Shown: piece by piece, positions 4,982-14,222 of the stretch | How the letters are laid out: the number at the start of each line of letters is the position of its first letter | How positions within the stretch are numbered: position 1 is the first letter of the stretch | NCBI GenBank assembly: GCA_937867305.1 | Contig: CALMKJ010000054.1 | Location: 1-42,156 of the forward strand | Length of the DNA: 42,156 nt | From: an uncultured Ectothiorhodospiraceae bacterium | GTDB taxonomy: Bacteria > Pseudomonadota > Gammaproteobacteria > JAABTG01 | Reading direction: 5' to 3' | The notes under the pieces: model-generated | Database searches by the model: none | What the model saw: only the letters and a program-made list of their open reading frames with translations | Told to the model about the DNA's origin: nothing | Translations under genes and position numbers: made by a program

Positions 4982-7078
4982 TCAGCCGCCGGCGACGGCC
5001 TGGGCCTGAATGGCGGTGATGACGACCGTATTGACGATGTCGGTGACGGTGCAGCCCCGGGAGAGGTCGTTCACGGGCTTCGCGAGGCCCTGCAGGATGG
5101 GGCCGATGGCGACGGCGCCCGATGAGCGCTGCACCGCCTTGTAGGTGTTGTTGCCGGTGTTGAGATCGGGAAAGACGAAAACCGTCGCCTGCCCCGCCAC
5201 CTCGCTCGCGGGCAGCTTGGTGCGCGCCACCGCCATGTCCACGGCGGCGTCGTACTGGATGGGGCCCTCGACCTTCAGCTCGGGGCTGCGCTCGCGCACG
5301 AGGCGCGTCGCCTCGCGCACCCGATCCACGTCCTCGCCCTGGCCGGAGTCGCCGGTCGAGTAGGAGAGCATGGCGATGCGCGGCTCGATGCCGAAGTAGG
5401 CGGCGGTCTGCGCGGAGCTGATGGCGATCTCGGCGAGCTGCTCGGCATCGGGGTGGACGTTCACCGCACAGTCCCCGTAGACCAGCACGCGGTCGGAGAG
5501 GCACATGAGGAAGACGCTCGAGATGAGCGACCGCCCCGGGGCCGTGCGGATCACCTCGAAGGCCGGGCGGATGGTGTGCTGTGTGGTGTGCACCGCGCCC
5601 GAGACCATGCCGTCGGCGTCCCCCTGGTAGACCATCATGGTCCCGAAGTAGCTGACGTCGGTCAGTGCGTCGTACGCGCCTCCCCGGGAGACCCCCTTGT
5701 GCCGGCGAAGCGCGAAATAGGTCTCCGCGTAGCGCTCCCGTTTCTCGCTCTTCAGCGGGTCGACGATCCGCACGTCGGTGAGCCGCAGGCCCAGGTGCTC
5801 GATCTCCCGGCGCACCGCGCGCTCGTCCCCGAGCAGGGTCAGGTCGGCCACGTCGCGCAGCCGCAGGATCTCGGCCGCGCGCAGCACTCGCTCCTCGGTG
5901 CCCTCGGGCAGCACGATGCGCATGCGCCGGCGCCGGGCCCGCTGGATCAGCTCGAATTCGAACATCAGCGGGGTCACGCGCTGGGGCCGGGGCATCTCCA
6001 GCCGGCGTGTCAGGTCGGCCCCGTCGATCCGCGACTCGACCAGGCCGAGTGCCGCGGCGATCTTGCGCGGGTTGTCGGCGGTCAGGTGGCCCTCGAGCGC
6101 GGCCACCGCCATCGCCGTGGTGAAGGTGTCGGTCTGCACGCTCAGGACCGGCACCGGAGAGCGGTCCAGTCCGCCGAACACGCGCAGCACCTCGGGCGCC
6201 GGCTCGAGCCCGCCGGAGAGCAGCAGCGCCGCGACCCGCGGGTAGGCGGTCGAGGAGTCCGCCAGCAGGCTGCCCAGGATGATGTCGGCGCGGTCGCCCG
6301 GCGTGATCACCAGGCTCGATTCCTCGAGGTGGTCGAGAAAGTGCGGCAACTCCATGGCCGCCACCAGATAGCGGGCCACCTCGCGGCTCCCGCCGTCGTT
6401 GCCCTGGGAGAGCCAGCGGGCCCCGAGCGCCGTAGCCACCTCGCCGACGGTGGGCATGGCGAGGACCGGGTTCTCGGGGATCAGGTAGACCGGCACGTCC
6501 CGCCAGGGCCGGGCAGCGAACAGGTGCTCGGCCTCGACGAGGTCCGCAGGCTCCACGCCGTTCACGGCGACCGCCAGCACGTCGCCCTGCCGGTCGGACA
6601 GGCTGTCGAGGACCAGGTGCACGGCGTCCACGAGCTCCGAGGGCTCACGCTCCCGACCGTTCAGCACCAGGACCAGGCGCGCGCCCAGCTGGCGCGAGAA
6701 CTCGAGACTGAACCGGAGCTCGAGGGACGCGGTCACCCCGGAGAAGTCGGGGCCCAGGCAGAGCACCACGTCGAACTGGGACTCGATGGCCTTGTATCGC
6801 TCCAGGACCCGCTTCAGGAGCTCGTCGCCGGTCCCCTCGCCCATCAGGGAACGGGCCACGTCTGCGGTCACCCCGTACAGGGCGTCGGTGCTCACGTTCA
6901 GGGAGTAGCGGCTCGCGACCATCTCGAGCACCCGGTCGGTGCCGTCGCGCGAGGCGATCACCGGCCGGAAGAACCCGACCCGGTCGCTGCTCGCCGCGAG
7001 GAGGTCCATCAGGCCGAGCGCCACGAGGGCCTTTCCCGAACCCGGACCGGTACCCGTTACGAAGAGGACTTTTGCCAT
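4982..7078 (-). CDS. pta: Phosphate acetyltransferase (long, three-domain form)
   Basis: Interconverts acetyl-CoA and acetyl phosphate; partner of the adjacent acetate kinase. The 698-residue protein is the long type found in enteric bacteria: an N-terminal BioD-like P-loop domain (GTGPGSGK, residues 9-16), a central DRTGG domain, and a C-terminal catalytic PTA/PTB domain from about residue 380 (QRARRRRMRIVLPEGTEERV onward, with SGAVHTTQHTIRPAF and YSTGDSGQG). The ATG at 7078 gives the expected MAKVLFVTGTGPGSGK start, although its ribosome site is weak. The frame is open upstream to 7201, but those residues resemble nothing in the family. Confidence 0.95.
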   Translation of the reverse strand: MAKVLFVTGTGPGSGKALVALGLMDLLAASSDRVGFFRPVIASRDGTDRVLEMVASRYSLNVSTDALYGVTADVARSLMGEGTGDELLKRVLERYKAIESQFDVVLCLGPDFSGVTASLELRFSLEFSRQLGARLVLVLNGREREPSELVDAVHLVLDSLSDRQGDVLAVAVNGVEPADLVEAEHLFAARPWRDVPVYLIPENPVLAMPTVGEVATALGARWLSQGNDGGSREVARYLVAAMELPHFLDHLEESSLVITPGDRADIILGSLLADSSTAYPRVAALLLSGGLEPAPEVLRVFGGLDRSPVPVLSVQTDTFTTAMAVAALEGHLTADNPRKIAAALGLVESRIDGADLTRRLEMPRPQRVTPLMFEFELIQRARRRRMRIVLPEGTEERVLRAAEILRLRDVADLTLLGDERAVRREIEHLGLRLTDVRIVDPLKSEKRERYAETYFALRRHKGVSRGGAYDALTDVSYFGTMMVYQGDADGMVSGAVHTTQHTIRPAFEVIRTAPGRSLISSVFLMCLSDRVLVYGDCAVNVHPDAEQLAEIAISSAQTAAYFGIEPRIAMLSYSTGDSGQGEDVDRVREATRLVRERSPELKVEGPIQYDAAVDMAVARTKLPASEVAGQATVFVFPDLNTGNNTYKAVQRSSGAVAIGPILQGLAKPVNDLSRGCTVTDIVNTVVITAIQAQAVAGG

Positions 7079-7213
7079 CGAAGACTCATGCCTTGAAAGT
7101 CGGGCACGCAACCCATTGTCTCGCCAGAGCGTACCACGCCCGGGAGAACCTGCCCCTGCGCACCCCGCCTGGCTTGCGGACCACGCCCGCCGGGGCACCA
7201 CCCCCTCACGGCG

Positions 7214-8515
7214 TCACTCGAAGGCGTAACTGCCGTCGCTGCGGACGGTGATGCTGTCGCAGAGGTAGCGCACCTGCTCGTAACCGTTCTTCTTCAAGAA
7301 GTGGTACGCCATCTCCGAGCGCGGGCCGTTGGTGCAGTAGGCCACGATCGGGCGGTCCTTCGGCAGCGACGCGAGGCTCGCCTGCAGGCGATCCAGCGGC
7401 AGGTGCGTCGCCCCCTTCAGGACACCCCCCGCGGCCTCGGCGTCGTCGCGCACGTCGAGAAAGAGCACCGCCTCGGGGTTGGCAGCCAGCCGGGCGAACT
7501 CCTCCCGGGAAATCGCACCCTCCTTCAGTTTCTTCGCGTAGCTGAACCGGGTCGGCGCCTCCCCGACGGCGGTCGGCAGGCCCCGCGCCGTCCACTCCCG
7601 GAAACCTCCCGCCAGGATGGTTGCGTTCCGGTAGCGGTATTTCTTGAGCTCCGCGAACGCCGTCAGGACGTCTTCGCCGCCGTCGCCGTTGCCGTAGACC
7701 ACGATGGGTGCGGCCAGGTCGCTGACACCGGGCAGCCTGGCGACCGCCTTCTCGGCGATGAACCGCCGGGTCATGGCCGGAAAGGCCGCGGCCTCGAGGG
7801 ACACGGCTCCCCGGATGTGCCCCGCGGCCACCTCACCCGCGGGACGCACGTCGATGACCACGTGGTGCGGGTCGAGCCGCGCGGCGAGCCATTCGGGCGT
7901 CGAGACCACGGGCTTGCCGGCCTTGCGCCAAGCGGGGATCCCGCCCTGGAACGCCTTCACCTCGGTGTACCCGGCCGCGAGCGCGGCATCGACCGATCGG
8001 CCCGCGTGGACACAGGTCGGTCCGTCCCCGTAGAGCACGAGGGGCAGATCCCGGTCCGGGGCCAGCTGCGCAAGGCCCTTCCCCGGGTCGTCGGCGGAGA
8101 GGGATGCGGCACCCGGGATGTGCCCCTGCTCGTAGGCCTCCCGCGGGCGCGCGTCCACCACCAGGAAGGGGGCGTCCTCGCCGCGCAGCCACTCGAGCTC
8201 CTCGAGGCTCATCTCGGCCCCGGGCGGGAGCGGGACGACCAGCCGGGTGATCCGCTCCGCGGGCCGACCGGGGGTGTGCTCGACCCGGACCCGGTCGGGT
8301 AACGCGAGGTCCTTGACGCCGCTCGCGTTCACGAAGTCGGTCTGCGGGCCGAAGAGGACCAGGTGGCACCTCCCGCCCACCTCGAGGCGCAGGGTGTTGG
8401 CCTTGCTCGAGACGTCCTCGATGGCACCCTCGACGGTGTCGGCGCGCGCGCCCCAGGCCAGGGTAAGGGTGAAGCAGAGGAGCAGGCAGAGCGGCGTCGG
8501 GCGCAGGATCGACAT
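7214..8515 (-). CDS. Exported protein with three rhodanese domains
   Basis: A 433-residue protein with a probable Sec signal peptide (about residues 1-25, cleavage after WGARA). After a small beta-rich segment (27-95) come three rhodanese-like domains: about 105-200, 205-315 and 335-430. The first keeps an active-site cysteine, C168 (GPTCVHAGRS), and the third C394 (YCTNGPRSE); the middle one has no cysteine in the corresponding loop (YGNGDGGED) and is probably structural. Rhodaneses move sulfane sulfur or bind other chalcogens. It is the last gene of a run with two multihaem cytochromes (34-base gap to the cytochrome b/c fusion), so I infer a periplasmic sulfur- or chalcogen-handling role linked to electron transfer. 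Rhodanese-like lipoproteins occur in Geobacter ext conduit clusters, but this protein has no clear lipobox. Confidence 0.8.
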   Translation of the reverse strand: MSILRPTPLCLLLCFTLTLAWGARADTVEGAIEDVSSKANTLRLEVGGRCHLVLFGPQTDFVNASGVKDLALPDRVRVEHTPGRPAERITRLVVPLPPGAEMSLEELEWLRGEDAPFLVVDARPREAYEQGHIPGAASLSADDPGKGLAQLAPDRDLPLVLYGDGPTCVHAGRSVDAALAAGYTEVKAFQGGIPAWRKAGKPVVSTPEWLAARLDPHHVVIDVRPAGEVAAGHIRGAVSLEAAAFPAMTRRFIAEKAVARLPGVSDLAAPIVVYGNGDGGEDVLTAFAELKKYRYRNATILAGGFREWTARGLPTAVGEAPTRFSYAKKLKEGAISREEFARLAANPEAVLFLDVRDDAEAAGGVLKGATHLPLDRLQASLASLPKDRPIVAYCTNGPRSEMAYHFLKKNGYEQVRYLCDSITVRSDGSYAFE

Positions 8516-8549
8516 ACTCGGACACCTCGCAGTGGGACGTCTGCCGGAC

Positions 8550-10502
8550 TCAGGATTCCTCGTAGCCCGTCACCATCGCCCGGATGTGGCCGAGCGCAGT
8601 GGGTCCCAGCGTAGAAAGGTAGACGTGGACGAACAGGAAGGCCAGCAGGGCGAAAGACACGGCCACGTGCACTCCGGCAACGACGCCCAGCCCACCCAGG
8701 ACCTCGATCAAAGGAGCCAGCCGGACCACGTCCATCAGCAACACACCCGTGCCGATCTGCACGGGAAACAGGACCAGCATGACGAAGAAGTAGGAGATCT
8801 GCTGCAAGGGGTTGAACCGCGCCCCAGCCGGGGGGTGGTGCGGATTGGGCTCGCCCCGGAAGATGCCGTGGCCATAGTAGCGCGCCTGGGCCAGCATCCG
8901 CTGCCAGTATTCCCGCCGGTGCAGTCGGGGCACGTAGAGCCCGAGCCTTCCGGAGCAGGCGTACCCGCAGAGCCAGAGGAGGAATCCCAGGGCCATCAGG
9001 ACCCCCAGAACGTCGTGCAGCACCACGGCCGACCGGAAGCGTGCGAGGCTGACGAGGTCCTGGTAGCGCAGCGCCAGCCCCGTGAGTAGCAGGAGCACGA
9101 ACACCAGCGCGTTCCCCCAGTGCCAGAGCCGCAATGGCAGGGAGTTCACGTAGACCCGCTGCCCAACCCCCCGCACAGGCACCGGGGTCGCGCCCTCGCG
9201 GGGCAACCGGCCGGAGGCGCCGCGCCGGCGCAGCCAGAGGTGGGCGGCAGGAGCCAGCAACCCCAACCCGGCCATCGCGGCGCCCAGCCCGTCGAGCCAC
9301 ACGCCGCGGGTTCCCCCGAGGACGTAGAAGCCCGTGGCGAGCCCCGCGGACTCGAAGGAGGTCAGGGTCTCCGGGGCGGCCGCCACGGTGGTCATCCGCC
9401 CGTCCTCCCGGACGAGGGTCAGCTGTACGTTGCGGAAGACGGGCGAGTCCCGGTGGTGACAACTCTCGCACTCCCTGACCGCCCCCCCCGTGAAGGCCAC
9501 CTGGTGGGCTTCGGAATGCTCCGTGACGTCCATCCTCCCCACGAGGCCGATGCGCCTGCCACCACCCTGGCGGTTCGACTGCTTCAGGATGAACGAGACC
9601 TCCGCCGAATCGATGGCCCCGGCGCGACCCCGGATCCGCTCGGCGAGGTCGCCCGAGCCCGGCCCGAGGAGCCCCGCCAGATCCTCCTCCCGCACCGGAA
9701 GGCCGGTCTCCAGGTCCACGACCTGCAGGTACACCCCCTTGCCGGCGTCCGGGACGTGGCATGCCCAGCAGGAGACGCGCTGCAGGTGCAGGTCGGCGTT
9801 CGGCAGCCAGGCCCCGTGGGCCTCCTCGGCCCCCGCGTGGCATCCGAGGCACGCCGCCTTCATCGTGCCGCCCGCGCTGGCCGAGCCCACCTGGTGGGCG
9901 AAGTGGCACGAGGAGCAGAGCGGTGCCCGGTGCTCCCCCCGGGCCCGCGCCGTGCCGTGAACGCTCTTTTCGTAGACCGCGAAGACGCCCTCGTGGCACT
10001 TGCGACAGGGGACACCGGCGAGCGTGCGGTAGGAGTCCTTCGGGCCTACCGTGTGGAACCCGTGGCAGTCCGTGCAGAGTGGGCCCTCCCGGCCCCGGGA
10101 CTGACCTGCCCCTGCCGTCTGCGAAATGGACAGTCTGGAGTGGATGCTCCCCCGGACCAGCGCCGCCTGGGCCACGTGGCACCTGCCGCAGGCACCGACG
10201 GCCTGGCGCCGGAGCTCGGCGCGGCTCCCGGGCTTTCTCCCCGGGTGGGGACCCGCGGCGACTTCCAGGTGGCAGGACTCGCAGGGCAACGCCCGGTGCA
10301 CCGAGGCCTCCAGGTCCGCCCGGTCGACGAAGCCGGAGACCCGCTCGCCGTCGAGGAAGGTGACGGAGAGCCCGGGGGATGCGTGGCAGGCGAGGCAGTC
10401 TTGCACCCCCTCGGCAGGGGCACCGAGGGCGAGCCCGAGCAGGCCGAACAGCGTGGCGACGGCACGCAGACACGGGCGAAGCCCGAGCCCCGGACGATTC
10501 AA
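8550..10502 (-). CDS. Nine-haem cytochrome c / cytochrome b fusion, CbcL-like quinone oxidoreductase
   Basis: The 650-residue protein has a signal or anchor segment (12-30), a periplasmic domain with nine CXXCH haem c sites (C36, C74, C105, C143, C166, C196, C218, C245, C345), then a membrane domain of about five helices (403-425, 460-480, 494-516, 567-590, 607-632) resembling the b-type subunits of formate dehydrogenase, Ni-Fe hydrogenase and thiosulfate reductase. Candidate haem b histidines are H461 (LWHWGNA), H496 (VLHDVLG), H612 and H626. A nine-haem c domain fused to a HydC/FdnI-type b domain is the architecture of Geobacter CbcL, an inner-membrane quinol oxidase used for low-potential metal reduction. 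I infer quinol:periplasmic-carrier electron transfer. It sits between an NapC/NirT-type cytochrome and an exported rhodanese. The terminal acceptor is unknown. Confidence 0.85.
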   Translation of the reverse strand: MNRPGLGLRPCLRAVATLFGLLGLALGAPAEGVQDCLACHASPGLSVTFLDGERVSGFVDRADLEASVHRALPCESCHLEVAAGPHPGRKPGSRAELRRQAVGACGRCHVAQAALVRGSIHSRLSISQTAGAGQSRGREGPLCTDCHGFHTVGPKDSYRTLAGVPCRKCHEGVFAVYEKSVHGTARARGEHRAPLCSSCHFAHQVGSASAGGTMKAACLGCHAGAEEAHGAWLPNADLHLQRVSCWACHVPDAGKGVYLQVVDLETGLPVREEDLAGLLGPGSGDLAERIRGRAGAIDSAEVSFILKQSNRQGGGRRIGLVGRMDVTEHSEAHQVAFTGGAVRECESCHHRDSPVFRNVQLTLVREDGRMTTVAAAPETLTSFESAGLATGFYVLGGTRGVWLDGLGAAMAGLGLLAPAAHLWLRRRGASGRLPREGATPVPVRGVGQRVYVNSLPLRLWHWGNALVFVLLLLTGLALRYQDLVSLARFRSAVVLHDVLGVLMALGFLLWLCGYACSGRLGLYVPRLHRREYWQRMLAQARYYGHGIFRGEPNPHHPPAGARFNPLQQISYFFVMLVLFPVQIGTGVLLMDVVRLAPLIEVLGGLGVVAGVHVAVSFALLAFLFVHVYLSTLGPTALGHIRAMVTGYEES

Positions 10503-10572
10503 GCGTCCAGACCCCGAGCCTCGCCCACTCGACGCGACAGCCCCAGACTCCCGGGGAAACCCGGCCCCGGGC

Positions 10573-11922
10573 CTACCGCGACACGACGTTCAGGTTCACC
10601 TGCGGCCACTTCCGGCCGTGGCAGGCGGGGTTCGCACAGAACGACCCACCGTCCCGACCGAACTCCGTCTTGCCGTGGCAACCGGCGCAACTCGGGTCGA
10701 GCCGGGTGCGGTGGTCGTGCATGAAGTTCGGCTCCAGGTGCGTCGGCGGCTGGCGCATTCCCGGTATCGCCGTGGACGCCACCGGGGCGGGCCCACCCTC
10801 GCGCTGGACCTCCGGCACGTTGTGGCAGAGGTTGCACTGCAGGCGGATGGCCTGCCCCTTGGCGTTCAGGTGCTTGCCGTCGTGGCAACGGAAGCAGCCG
10901 GGGAAGTCCTTGTGGGCCCCGTTGGCAGGGAAGGTGCGCCAGGAGACCTCGGGCGCCGAGAAGACGCTCTTGCCGAGGATGTCCGTGAGAACGCGCCTGA
11001 ACTCGTCGCCGCCGGCCGGAGCCGCTGCACCACCCGCCTCCTGGCGGTAACGGCTCCCCGCGTCGTCCACCAGTTTGGCCACCGTCTCCTTGCTCACCAC
11101 GCCCTTCTCGTCGAGGGCGGCCAGCTCCTTCATCACGGCCATGACCCGCGCCTTGATGTCCGGGATGCTCTGGCGCAACTGACTCGCGTAGATGGCCGCG
11201 TCCACCCGGTCCTCCGGGTTGGGGAACGGGTGCCCCGACGCGTTGTGGCAGTCGATGCAGTCCATCGTCTTGCGGGGCAACTGGTCGCGCTGTGCGGCCG
11301 GAAGCTTCGAGGCGGCGTCGGTGAAGGTGTCGGTACGCCCGTCAGCGTACGTGACCTGGACCCAGGGGATCTCCTGCTTCTGGGGGTCCACCGCCGCGTA
11401 TTGAACCGTGTTCTCCACGTGCCAGTGGATGCCCCGGGCGTCGGCCTCGCGGATCGCCCCGAAGCCGGTGTGCAGGATCAGGCGCGTGGTCGTCTCGGTG
11501 CTCTTCGCGTCGGCGTCGTAATGCTTCTTCACCCGCACCGTGTCGTCGTGGGCGGTTGCGGGCCAGTGGCACGCCTCGCAGGCGATGCGGGCCGGCTTCA
11601 GGGTCTTGGCGACCACCGGCCGGTCGTAGCCCACGATCATGGACCAGAGCTCGTGGGCGTGCTCGGTCTTCAGCACCATGGCCTTCAGCGTGGGCACCCG
11701 GCCCATGTGGCACTCGACGCACTGCACCCGCGCGTGGGGCGACTCGGCGTGCGCGACCGGCTCCTCCGGGTGGACGGCGTGGCAGGCGTTGGTGCAGAAC
11801 CAATTGCTGTTGGTGAACTCCCAGCCCAAGATGCCGCCGACCGCCAGCACCGCGAGACCGATCAGGACGGCCACCAGCGCCAGGGCGCCACCCGCAATCC
11901 CACGCGACAGCAAAGGTTTCAT
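10573..11922 (-). CDS. NapC/NirT-type membrane-anchored multihaem cytochrome c (up to eight haems)
   Basis: A 449-residue protein with an N-terminal uncleaved transmembrane helix (about 10-35), then an NapC/NirT-like haem pair, then a long C-terminal extension carrying more haems. Canonical CXXCH sites begin at C68, C115, C222, C343, C363 and C412. Two spaced variants are also present: C43-TNA-CH (CX3CH) at the usual first-haem position of NapC proteins, and C429-ANPA-CH (CX4CH) near the end. Such proteins take electrons from menaquinol or ubiquinol; Geobacter ImcH is a larger NapC-family cytochrome with a comparable role. A GTG at 11925 is an alternative start; GGGAGGA at 11931-11937 serves either. 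It leads the operon with the CbcL-like fusion (70-base gap) and rhodanese. Confidence 0.85.
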   Translation of the reverse strand: MKPLLSRGIAGGALALVAVLIGLAVLAVGGILGWEFTNSNWFCTNACHAVHPEEPVAHAESPHARVQCVECHMGRVPTLKAMVLKTEHAHELWSMIVGYDRPVVAKTLKPARIACEACHWPATAHDDTVRVKKHYDADAKSTETTTRLILHTGFGAIREADARGIHWHVENTVQYAAVDPQKQEIPWVQVTYADGRTDTFTDAASKLPAAQRDQLPRKTMDCIDCHNASGHPFPNPEDRVDAAIYASQLRQSIPDIKARVMAVMKELAALDEKGVVSKETVAKLVDDAGSRYRQEAGGAAAPAGGDEFRRVLTDILGKSVFSAPEVSWRTFPANGAHKDFPGCFRCHDGKHLNAKGQAIRLQCNLCHNVPEVQREGGPAPVASTAIPGMRQPPTHLEPNFMHDHRTRLDPSCAGCHGKTEFGRDGGSFCANPACHGRKWPQVNLNVVSR

Positions 11923-12069
11923 CACGAGACTCCTCCCAGGACCTTCGTGACACTAGTCTCCGGAAAGATGACGCGTCAACGGCGAGTGGGCCTATCTACT
12001 TGATCTCGAGCACTCTCAGGTGTCGTCGAAAGCTGCCCGAGCCCCCCGTCGACCGCCCGTGTGCCGGGC

Positions 12070-13449
12070 TCAGCCGGGGGTGGCGGGAAACTCCAGCCGC
12101 ACCCGCAGACCGGGGGCGTTGTCCTCCAGGGCCACCCGCATCCCATGCAGACGGGCAACGGCGTCGACCAGGCTGAGGCCGAGACCGTTGCCGGGCGTGG
12201 ACCGGGCACCGTCGAGCCGGTAGAAGCGCTGGAACACCTTCCGGCTCTCGGCCTCGGGGACCCCGGGCCCCGTGTCGGCGACCACGACCACCGGCCGCTC
12301 GGGCGCCCCGGCGACGGTGATCCGCACCGTCCCACCCGCAGGCGTGTATTTCACCGCGTTGTCCAGCAGGTTGGCGAACGCCTGGAACAACAGGTCGCGG
12401 TCGCCCCGGGTCCGAACCTCGCCCGGCGCCTCCACCGCGAGCCGCAGACCCCGCTCCTCGGCTACCGGCTCGTAGAGCTCGGCGACGTCGCGCAGCAGCC
12501 CCGGCAGGTCGACGTCCGCGAAACCAGCCCGGAGCGCTGGCGACTCGGCCCGCGCGATCCGCAGCAGGGAGTTGAAGGTCGAGAGGAGGCCATCGGCGTC
12601 GGCGACCGCGTGGTCCACGGCCTCGAGGTCCACCTGGCCCTGCTGGGCCAGGCCACGCAGCTGCTCCAGCCGCCCGCGCAGGCGCGAGAGGGGGGTGCGC
12701 AGGTCGTGGGCGATGCTGTCGGAGACCCGCCGCACGTCGTCCATCAGGGCCTCGATGCGGTCGAGCATGCCGTTGAGATTTTCGGCCAGCTCGTCGAACT
12801 CGTCTCCGGCGCCGCGGGCGGGAACCCGGCGCGAGAGGTCGCCCCCCATGATCTGGCGCGCCGTCTGGTTGACCGCCTCGACCCGGCGCGCGGTGCTCCG
12901 GCTCATCAGGGCCGCGCCGAGAAGCGCGAGTGCCGCCGTCACCGGCAGACCCCACGCCAGCGCGCGGGTGATCAAGGCCCGGATCGCCGTCAGCTCCTGC
13001 AGGTCGCGCCCCACCAGCAGGCGGTAGTTACCCGGGAGCTGAAACGCGCGTGCCCGGGCCAGGTGCGCCTGGGCGGAGGGCCAGCCGGACTCCTCCAGAC
13101 GGAAGTCGAGCCAGCCCTCCGGGCTCTCGGCGCCGGGAGGCCACTGACTCAAGTTGCCGACCAGCGGGTGCCGGCGCTCGTCCACGAGCAGGTACACCGT
13201 GGACCCCGCGGGGCGACGGGCCACACGCTCCAGCAGCGCCCCGGTCAGCCCGGCGATCCCGGTCCTGCGATAGCGCTCGGCCAGGGTGGCGACCTCGGCC
13301 TCGATGGCGTCGTCCGCCTGCCGGAAGAGATAGGCCGCCGTCTGCCAGTAGACGAAGCCGAGCAGCAGGACCGCGGAGACCGCGAACAGCCCCGCGTACA
13401 CCAGGGCCAGGCGGAAGGTGACACTGCGCAGCAGCCTATGCGGGGGCAC
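12070..13449 (-). CDS. Two-component sensor histidine kinase
   Basis: An inner-membrane sensor partnered with the overlapping upstream response regulator. Two membrane helices (about 12-36 and 162-182) bracket a roughly 120-residue periplasmic sensor region, followed by HAMP and the kinase core: phospho-acceptor H248 in SIAHDLRTPLSRLRG, N box NLLDNAVKYTP, G1 DTGPGVP, F box FQRFYR and G2 GNGLGLSLV. The start is uncertain: GTG at 13449 (overlap of 14 bases with the regulator) or ATG at 13467 (overlap 32). The signal is unknown; the regulator-kinase order and HisKA type resemble the Cus/Qse/Phо-like envelope- or metal-responsive pairs. The multihaem operon lies just downstream on the same strand, so regulation of it is possible but not shown. 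Confidence 0.9.
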   Translation of the reverse strand: MPPHRLLRSVTFRLALVYAGLFAVSAVLLLGFVYWQTAAYLFRQADDAIEAEVATLAERYRRTGIAGLTGALLERVARRPAGSTVYLLVDERRHPLVGNLSQWPPGAESPEGWLDFRLEESGWPSAQAHLARARAFQLPGNYRLLVGRDLQELTAIRALITRALAWGLPVTAALALLGAALMSRSTARRVEAVNQTARQIMGGDLSRRVPARGAGDEFDELAENLNGMLDRIEALMDDVRRVSDSIAHDLRTPLSRLRGRLEQLRGLAQQGQVDLEAVDHAVADADGLLSTFNSLLRIARAESPALRAGFADVDLPGLLRDVAELYEPVAEERGLRLAVEAPGEVRTRGDRDLLFQAFANLLDNAVKYTPAGGTVRITVAGAPERPVVVVADTGPGVPEAESRKVFQRFYRLDGARSTPGNGLGLSLVDAVARLHGMRVALEDNAPGLRVRLEFPATPG

Positions 13450-14113
13450 GGAGCACGTACCCGGCACCGCGCACGGTGTGCAGCAGCGGCGTCTCGAAGT
13501 CCCGGTCGATCTTGCGCCGCAGCCGGCTCACGTGCACGTCGATGACGTTGGTCTGGGGGTCGAAGTGGTAATCCCAGACGTGCTCGAGCAGCATGGTGCG
13601 GGTGACCACCTGGCCCGCGTGGCGCATCAGGTACTCGAGCAGCCGGAACTCCCGGGGCTGCAGGTCGACGGGCCGGCCCGCCCGGGTGACGGTGCGGGCA
13701 AGCAGGTCCATCTCGAGGTCGGACACCTGCAGGCGGGTCGCAGGGGCCTCGCTGCCGCTCCGGCGCAGCAGGGCCTCCAGGCGCGCGTGAAGCTCGGAGA
13801 ACGCGAAGGGCTTGACCAGGTAGTCGTCACCGCCGGCCCGCAGCCCCTCGACACGGTGGTCCACCTCCCCGAGGGCGCTCAGGATCAGGACCGGGGTGCG
13901 GTCGCCCGCGGCCCGCAGGGCCCGGACGATCGCGAGGCCGTCGAGTCCGGGCAGCATGCGGTCGACCACCATCACGTCGTGAGGCGCGGCGGAGGCAAGG
14001 AAGAGGCCCTCTTTCCCGTCGGCCGCGTGGTCGACACTCGCCCCTGCCTCGCGCAGGGCCTTCACCAGGAACCCGGCGACGTGGGGGTCGTCTTCGATGA
14101 CCAGGACTTTCAC
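13436..14113 (-). CDS. OmpR/PhoB-family response regulator
   Basis: A 225-residue DNA-binding regulator. The receiver domain has the acidic pair D8-D9, phospho-acceptor D51 (MVVDRMLPGLDG) and K101 (LVKPFAFSEL). The C-terminal winged helix shows LQPREFRLLEYLMRH and the recognition-helix region NVIDVHVSRLRRKID, ending with HTVRGAGYVLR, all typical of the OmpR/PhoB family and close to CusR/QseB-like proteins. GTG at 14113 is chosen because it gives the standard MKVLVIEDDP start; an ATG at 14143 lies inside a repeat element and would add ten atypical residues. Cotranscribed with the overlapping kinase gene. Confidence 0.92.
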   Translation of the reverse strand: MKVLVIEDDPHVAGFLVKALREAGASVDHAADGKEGLFLASAAPHDVMVVDRMLPGLDGLAIVRALRAAGDRTPVLILSALGEVDHRVEGLRAGGDDYLVKPFAFSELHARLEALLRRSGSEAPATRLQVSDLEMDLLARTVTRAGRPVDLQPREFRLLEYLMRHAGQVVTRTMLLEHVWDYHFDPQTNVIDVHVSRLRRKIDRDFETPLLHTVRGAGYVLRAPA

Positions 14114-14140
14114 CGCAAGCACCTTCTTCGCGAGCACCAT

Positions 14141-14222
14141 CACCGCAGAGACGCAGAGACCAAAGGCGCATCGGAGGTCCCTTTCACCATCACCCTCTTT
14201 GCGCCTTCGCGCCTCTGCGGTT
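14141..14222. repeat. Imperfect inverted repeat of the CGCAGAG-CGCAGAG kind
   Basis: The left arm (about 14141-14168, ACCGCAGAGACGCAGAGA then AAAGGCGCA) and right arm (about 14196-14222, CTTTGCGCC then CGCGCCTCTGCGGT) are near reverse complements. This resembles the dispersed extragenic repeats containing ACCGCAGAG that I know from many proteobacterial genomes. It fills the gap between the protease gene and the response regulator. In RNA it forms a long hairpin that could separate expression of the two. Confidence 0.55.

Follow-up and report, generated by a model that had tools for sequence, protein, structure and literature searches.

ImcH and CbcL are usually treated as separate gates to extracellular electron transfer, picked by redox potential, and the sulfur-transfer partner of the PsrABC polysulfide reductase has a Sud-like role. 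ImcH homologues carry an atypical CX3CH motif beside a membrane segment, 5–9 CX2CH motifs and usually three transmembrane helices, and members with a single helix are known from Intrasporangium and Anaerolinea (Zhong and Shi; PMC6295460). The Geobacter rhodanese ExtH has a mass of about 49 kDa (PMC5877670), and cells need the porin ExtI of its cluster to reduce selenite and tellurite normally (PMC5877670; PMC6148476). Here, we analyzed a window of 42,156 nucleotides (contig CALMKJ010000054.1, assembly GCA_937867305.1) from the genome of an uncultured Ectothiorhodospiraceae bacterium, G000, in which an ImcH-family cytochrome, a fusion of CbcL-like architecture, and a predicted exported rhodanese are encoded side by side.

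Anatomy and conservation of the three-gene set

The set consists of three co-oriented genes on the minus strand; in the open reading frames read from the sequence, exactly 70 bases separate the first gene from the second, and 34 the second from the third. They encode an ImcH-family (NapC/NirT) octahaem c-type cytochrome (P0003; 10573..11925) and a nine-haem c/cytochrome b561 fusion of CbcL-like architecture (P0002; 8550..10502), both assigned from Pfam matches, haem motifs, and alignment, as well as an exported triple rhodanese recognized by three Pfam rhodanese stretches (7214..8515). A sequence-only reading had described three co-oriented genes with these gaps and up to 17 haem c sites, which our count of eight in the ImcH protein and nine in the fusion confirms. 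Shuffled versions of the same proteins held means of 0.03–0.08 motifs and never more than two, ruling out a chance origin. Also supported is the proposal that an ImcH-type and a CbcL-type protein share one gene set with a sulfur-transfer protein.

Directly upstream of the ImcH gene, on the same strand, is a gene for a sensor histidine kinase (12070..13467), which stands in the same order in the sister species G001 and is a possible regulator of the trio. It is accompanied by an OmpR-type response regulator that resembles the heavy-metal family (13436..14143, minus strand; 246 bits against a cut-off of 279). Beyond these two, further upstream on the minus strand, lies a DegP-type protease, and the genes downstream of the trio encode phosphate acetyltransferase, acetate kinase, and citrate synthase. 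A scan of the region 6900–12400 found no sigma-70-like promoter match.

The second species of the genus (G001) keeps the order regulator, kinase, ImcH, b/c fusion, and rhodanese, with protein identities of 93% for ImcH, 81% for the fusion, and 88% for the rhodanese. Because the gene order is identical, contamination is an unlikely source of the putative operon. All three genes are under purifying selection, with dN/dS values against G001 of 0.17 for ImcH, 0.33 for the fusion, and 0.33 for the rhodanese, whose end residues are masked in the G001 record. Across 369 genomes sampled from the class, matches to the ImcH protein occur in four, to the rhodanese in eight, and to the fusion in three, with full-length matches to the fusion confined to the two genomes of this genus. 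G002, from another genus of the same family, encodes an ImcH protein of 43% identity without the other two genes on its short contig. Conservation of the three genes together, whose absence would have counted against the earlier reading, was seen in both species of the genus (2/2), but no intact trio was found outside the genus among the 369 sampled genomes, so that this check bears out the reading only in part. Plasmid records searched with the ImcH and rhodanese proteins gave no match.

The ImcH-family cytochrome and the b/c fusion

The ImcH gene starts at GTG 11925 or ATG 11922. Its product contains six CX2CH motifs, one CX3CH, and one terminal CX4CH, and these eight haem sites hold all 16 of its cysteines. 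The Pfam NapC/NirT N-terminal region (PF03264) scores 33.2 bits with a cut-off of 24.1, and one N-terminal transmembrane helix is predicted at residues 15–33. Just past this helix lies the CX3CH motif (C44-TNA-CH), which is present in 10 of 10 aligned sequences. The protein aligns end to end, at 26–28% identity, with homologues of the exact ImcH layout (three transmembrane helices, CX3CH, and six CX2CH; L026, L028, L029, and L045), and its identity to other relatives is 30–43%. It is through the ImcH-layout homologues, rather than G. sulfurreducens ImcH itself, that we assign P0003 as a putative short-anchor member of the ImcH family. It has in common with the family the CX3CH by a transmembrane helix, the NapC/NirT-like start, the CX2CH series, and the full-length alignment. 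However, it has one helix in place of the usual three, a rare but published exception, an extra C-terminal CX4CH haem, and different operon partners. Structure prediction from five sequences gave a mean pLDDT of 45.0, too low for trust.

The fusion has nine CX2CH haem sites, cytochrome c7/c3-type Pfam stretches in its c part, and a Pfam cytochrome b561 domain (PF01292) at residues 454–646 (80.1 bits, cut-off 30.1). A profile of the c part matches the solved cytochrome 28pb_A (E = 2.8e-24), and the top model for the cytochrome b domain is a thiosulfate-reductase cytochrome b, at a score under the cut-off. Like CbcL, MtrH, and MtoC, it joins an N-terminal multihaem c part to a C-terminal cytochrome b in one chain (the family range is 3–23 CX2CH), with conserved histidines in the membrane helices as expected for haem b ligands. 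About five transmembrane helices are indicated in its C-terminal half by hydropathy and a low-confidence model, where six are expected of CbcL/MtrH/MtoC. Its mean pLDDT, predicted from 17 sequences, was 56.5, again too low for trust.

The closest relatives found for the fusion are two-gene modules in Nitrospirota, and its likeness to CbcL is one of architecture rather than of direct sequence comparison. Outside the genus, the nearest are sixteen Nitrospirota loci, fourteen of which we inspected gene by gene, with a 13-haem cytochrome gene and an overlapping cytochrome b gene. Residues His461, 496, 612, and 626 in the membrane part of the fusion match histidines in 5 of 5 Nitrospirota cytochrome b rows. 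Because it aligns with the last nine haems plus the cytochrome b of these pairs (39–52% identity), the fusion is a joined, shortened version of the Nitrospirota module missing the first four haems, with a CbcL-like architecture. As it is missing from the other class members sampled, it may have been gained by transfer. Conservation of the trio in Nitrospirota was considered and rejected, as the modules there have no such rhodanese or ImcH adjoining. At two of the loci (L008 and L016), the 13-haem and cytochrome b pair is convergent to apparent [NiFe] hydrogenase genes and also adjoins apparent V-type ATPase genes, both read from sequence.

Our searches reached six loci at which an ImcH homologue lies beside other multihaem or quinone modules, in a sample biased towards multihaem loci. 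ImcH homologues occur with apparent NrfD-type modules (L020 and L022), next to an 11-haem cytochrome gene (L089), and in a row of separate adjoining genes for a 13-haem cytochrome, cytochrome b, and ImcH (L028). The two remaining loci have a 13-haem cytochrome gene followed by one for a 730-aa fusion of cytochrome b with ImcH (L026:2010-4202 and L029:9323-11515). These two fusions are 93% identical, yet their phylum labels differ; one bin label is probably wrong through misbinning, and we counted both as one case. Such a fusion is direct evidence that cooperation of the two parts is possible. The pairing of ImcH with these modules is seen again in other phyla, in one case as a fusion, so joint action of the two “quinol-oxidase types” is more likely than their use as alternatives. 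This weakens the earlier view in which the two serve as alternative quinol oxidases for acceptors of different potential.

The triple rhodanese and its Psr/Ext-like relatives

Domain 3 of the operon rhodanese has a canonical active-site cysteine, Cys394 (YCTNGPRS), and is the only domain with the loop-start catalytic cysteine of sulfurtransferase-type rhodaneses. In domain 1, the loop-start cysteine is lost in both species (YCGGPTC in close relatives, YGDGPTC here) and Cys168 remains; domain 2 lacks cysteine both here and in relatives. Of the two cysteines described at first as intact, one is canonical Cys394 and the other is only the second cysteine of the domain 1 loop. The operon rhodanese may have an altered role because its domain 1 lost the cysteine that the Psr-linked paralogues keep.

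The two nearest relatives of this rhodanese outside the operon (65% and 55% identity) are encoded in tandem on contig C26 of the same genome (L068:6820-19420 and on) and in G001 (C1:about 668-679 kb; L071). There they adjoin a molybdenum enzyme, closest among solved structures to the Thermus thiosulfate/polysulfide reductase PsrA (2vpw, E = 1.7e-204), and its FeS and NrfD subunits. The same PsrABC-type cluster also contains genes for an ExtM-like 11-haem, an ExtKL-like pentahaem, and a tetrahaem protein, together with FeS and NrfD genes. The Ext-like proteins score far under the NCBIfam equivalog cut-offs. Similar Psr/Ext-like sets occur in G002 (L073) and G300 (L076), with a partial set in G309. 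Because the tree puts the operon rhodanese next to one C26 copy, inside the genus group (support 98–100), it is a within-genus duplicate from a sulfur-linked family. Compared with G001, C26 (L068/L069 versus L071/L072) is 97–100% identical over most of its length and about 91% at its start, and the window is 88–92% identical; C26 could be mosaic, foreign to the bin, or a recent transfer. The link between the operon and the Psr cluster holds in G001, because that genome carries both on one 744-kb contig.

Two side observations concern this group of loci. The ExtM-like 11-haem protein (L068:14261-16237) ends in a retropepsin-like aspartyl protease domain (PF13975) that, at 27.8 bits, falls slightly short of the cut-off of 28.2. 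A possible haem-rhodanese hybrid is encoded at L078:4462-5907, where a distant triple rhodanese (23–32% identical to the others) carries a CXXCH haem motif near its N-terminus.

That the paralogues adjoin psrA/psrB/psrC-type genes suggests a role as a sulfane-sulfur carrier; the operon itself, however, has no molybdoenzyme, and its rhodanese has three domains. The operon rhodanese resembles ExtH of the Geobacter extHIJKLMNOPQS cluster in being an exported rhodanese-like protein of similar size, with paralogues that sit with ExtM/ExtKL-like cytochromes. Unlike ExtH, it has no adjoining porin ExtI or small ExtJ, no lipoprotein signal by eye, and no reported ExtH family match; its neighbors are the b/c fusion and the phosphate acetyltransferase gene, and its partners are ImcH and the fusion. 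It looks like a soluble periplasmic protein, and nothing outer-membrane is encoded at the operon, which counts against an action “at the cell surface” as first proposed.

Possible functions of the unit

We tentatively favor, at a little less than an even chance, a quinone-linked inner-membrane unit in which ImcH, as a quinol dehydrogenase, and the b/nona-haem c protein act jointly and exchange electrons with a periplasmic sulfur step, with the rhodanese carrying sulfane sulfur. Quinol would be oxidized by the unit at the membrane, up to 17 c haems would relay the electrons to the periplasm, and the rhodanese would deliver or accept sulfane sulfur, as polysulfide or persulfide, at the acceptor step. 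We infer a physical complex, a quinol-to-periplasm direction, a sulfur substrate, and a persulfide form on Cys394.

The sulfur reading draws on the Psr/Ext-like context of the rhodanese, the sub-cut-off thiosulfate-reductase-like score of the cytochrome b domain, and a SoxXA fusion elsewhere in the genome (424 aa; L085:960-2234 on contig C201), in which the SoxX and SoxA parts are both over curated cut-offs. No other sox genes were identified near it in the stretch of C201 read. Sulfur had been a guess in the sequence-only reading; independent support for it comes from the rhodanese paralogues, whose neighbors include a PsrA-type enzyme and Ext-like cytochromes. Against it, the operon encodes no sulfur oxidoreductase, no rhodanese or ImcH of this type flanks the Nitrospirota modules, domain 1 of the rhodanese lacks the cysteine kept by its Psr-linked paralogues, and the trio is found in one genus only. 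Our best reading is sulfane-sulfur chemistry for the module, with selenium less likely, and the trio has the look of a supplement to sulfur respiration specific to this genus, not of a classic route of metal reduction. A search that was positive in 11 of 14 control genomes turned up no NIR_SIR-domain protein in G000 (given as 100% complete), which leaves this genome without dsrAB and without an assimilatory sulfite or nitrite reductase of the NIR_SIR type.

It is rather unlikely that the trio is an ordinary ImcH/CbcL entry to extracellular electron transfer towards metals or electrodes, with the rhodanese minor or unrelated. Both families are known inner-membrane entry points of this kind in Geobacter (PMC6295460; PMC6148476), and G178 encodes a related ImcH within an mtrABC-like cluster that includes cytochromes of 19 and 10 haems. 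However, the whole genome, searched for MtrB/PioB-type porins, gave no MtrB_PioB match above cut-off (best 15.3 bits, cut-off 23), which upholds and extends the earlier statement that no porin-cytochrome lies beside the operon, and the genome has few multihaem loci.

Contig C201 also encodes an NrfA-like octahaem cytochrome (L085:9173-10855; PF02335, E = 2.7e-50; seven CX2CH and a CXXCK) beside CcmF, and in the related genome G003 (L077) a 7-CX2CH cytochrome lies beside a CcmF-like gene, 2.3 kb from a rhodanese of the trio's family. The unit might feed the NrfA-like enzyme as it reduces nitrite or sulfite, the rhodanese being a source or a sink of sulfur, but the NrfA-like gene lies outside the trio operon, and we consider this route similarly improbable.

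We give a still smaller chance to a cytochrome-based sulfur respiration without a molybdoenzyme: a single quinol-oxidizing complex of ImcH and the nine-haem b/c protein would reduce persulfide or polysulfide on the rhodanese directly via haem c, and the system would have arisen by duplication of a Psr-linked triple rhodanese. Least probable is selenite or tellurite reduction or detoxification in the manner of the ext cluster: ExtM-like and ExtKL-like cytochromes do occur with triple rhodaneses in the paralogous cluster, the size of ExtH is in keeping, and the adjoining regulator resembles heavy-metal response regulators, but the Ext-like proteins fall far short of their equivalog models, a PsrA-type enzyme is there instead, and the only ext-like gene of the operon is the rhodanese.

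The operon thus brings known families into a combination without found precedent; no report of an operon of ImcH, CbcL, and rhodanese was found in the literature searched, in which subscription journals are thinly covered. To return to the quinone-linked unit with a sulfur step, the pairing seen here, the pairing and fusion in other phyla, and the tie to sulfur transfer suggest that ImcH and CbcL can act as one quinone-linked unit, and that such a unit could serve periplasmic sulfur chemistry. If true, this would change how ImcH and CbcL genes are interpreted in metagenomes, where metal reduction is now often deduced from their presence.
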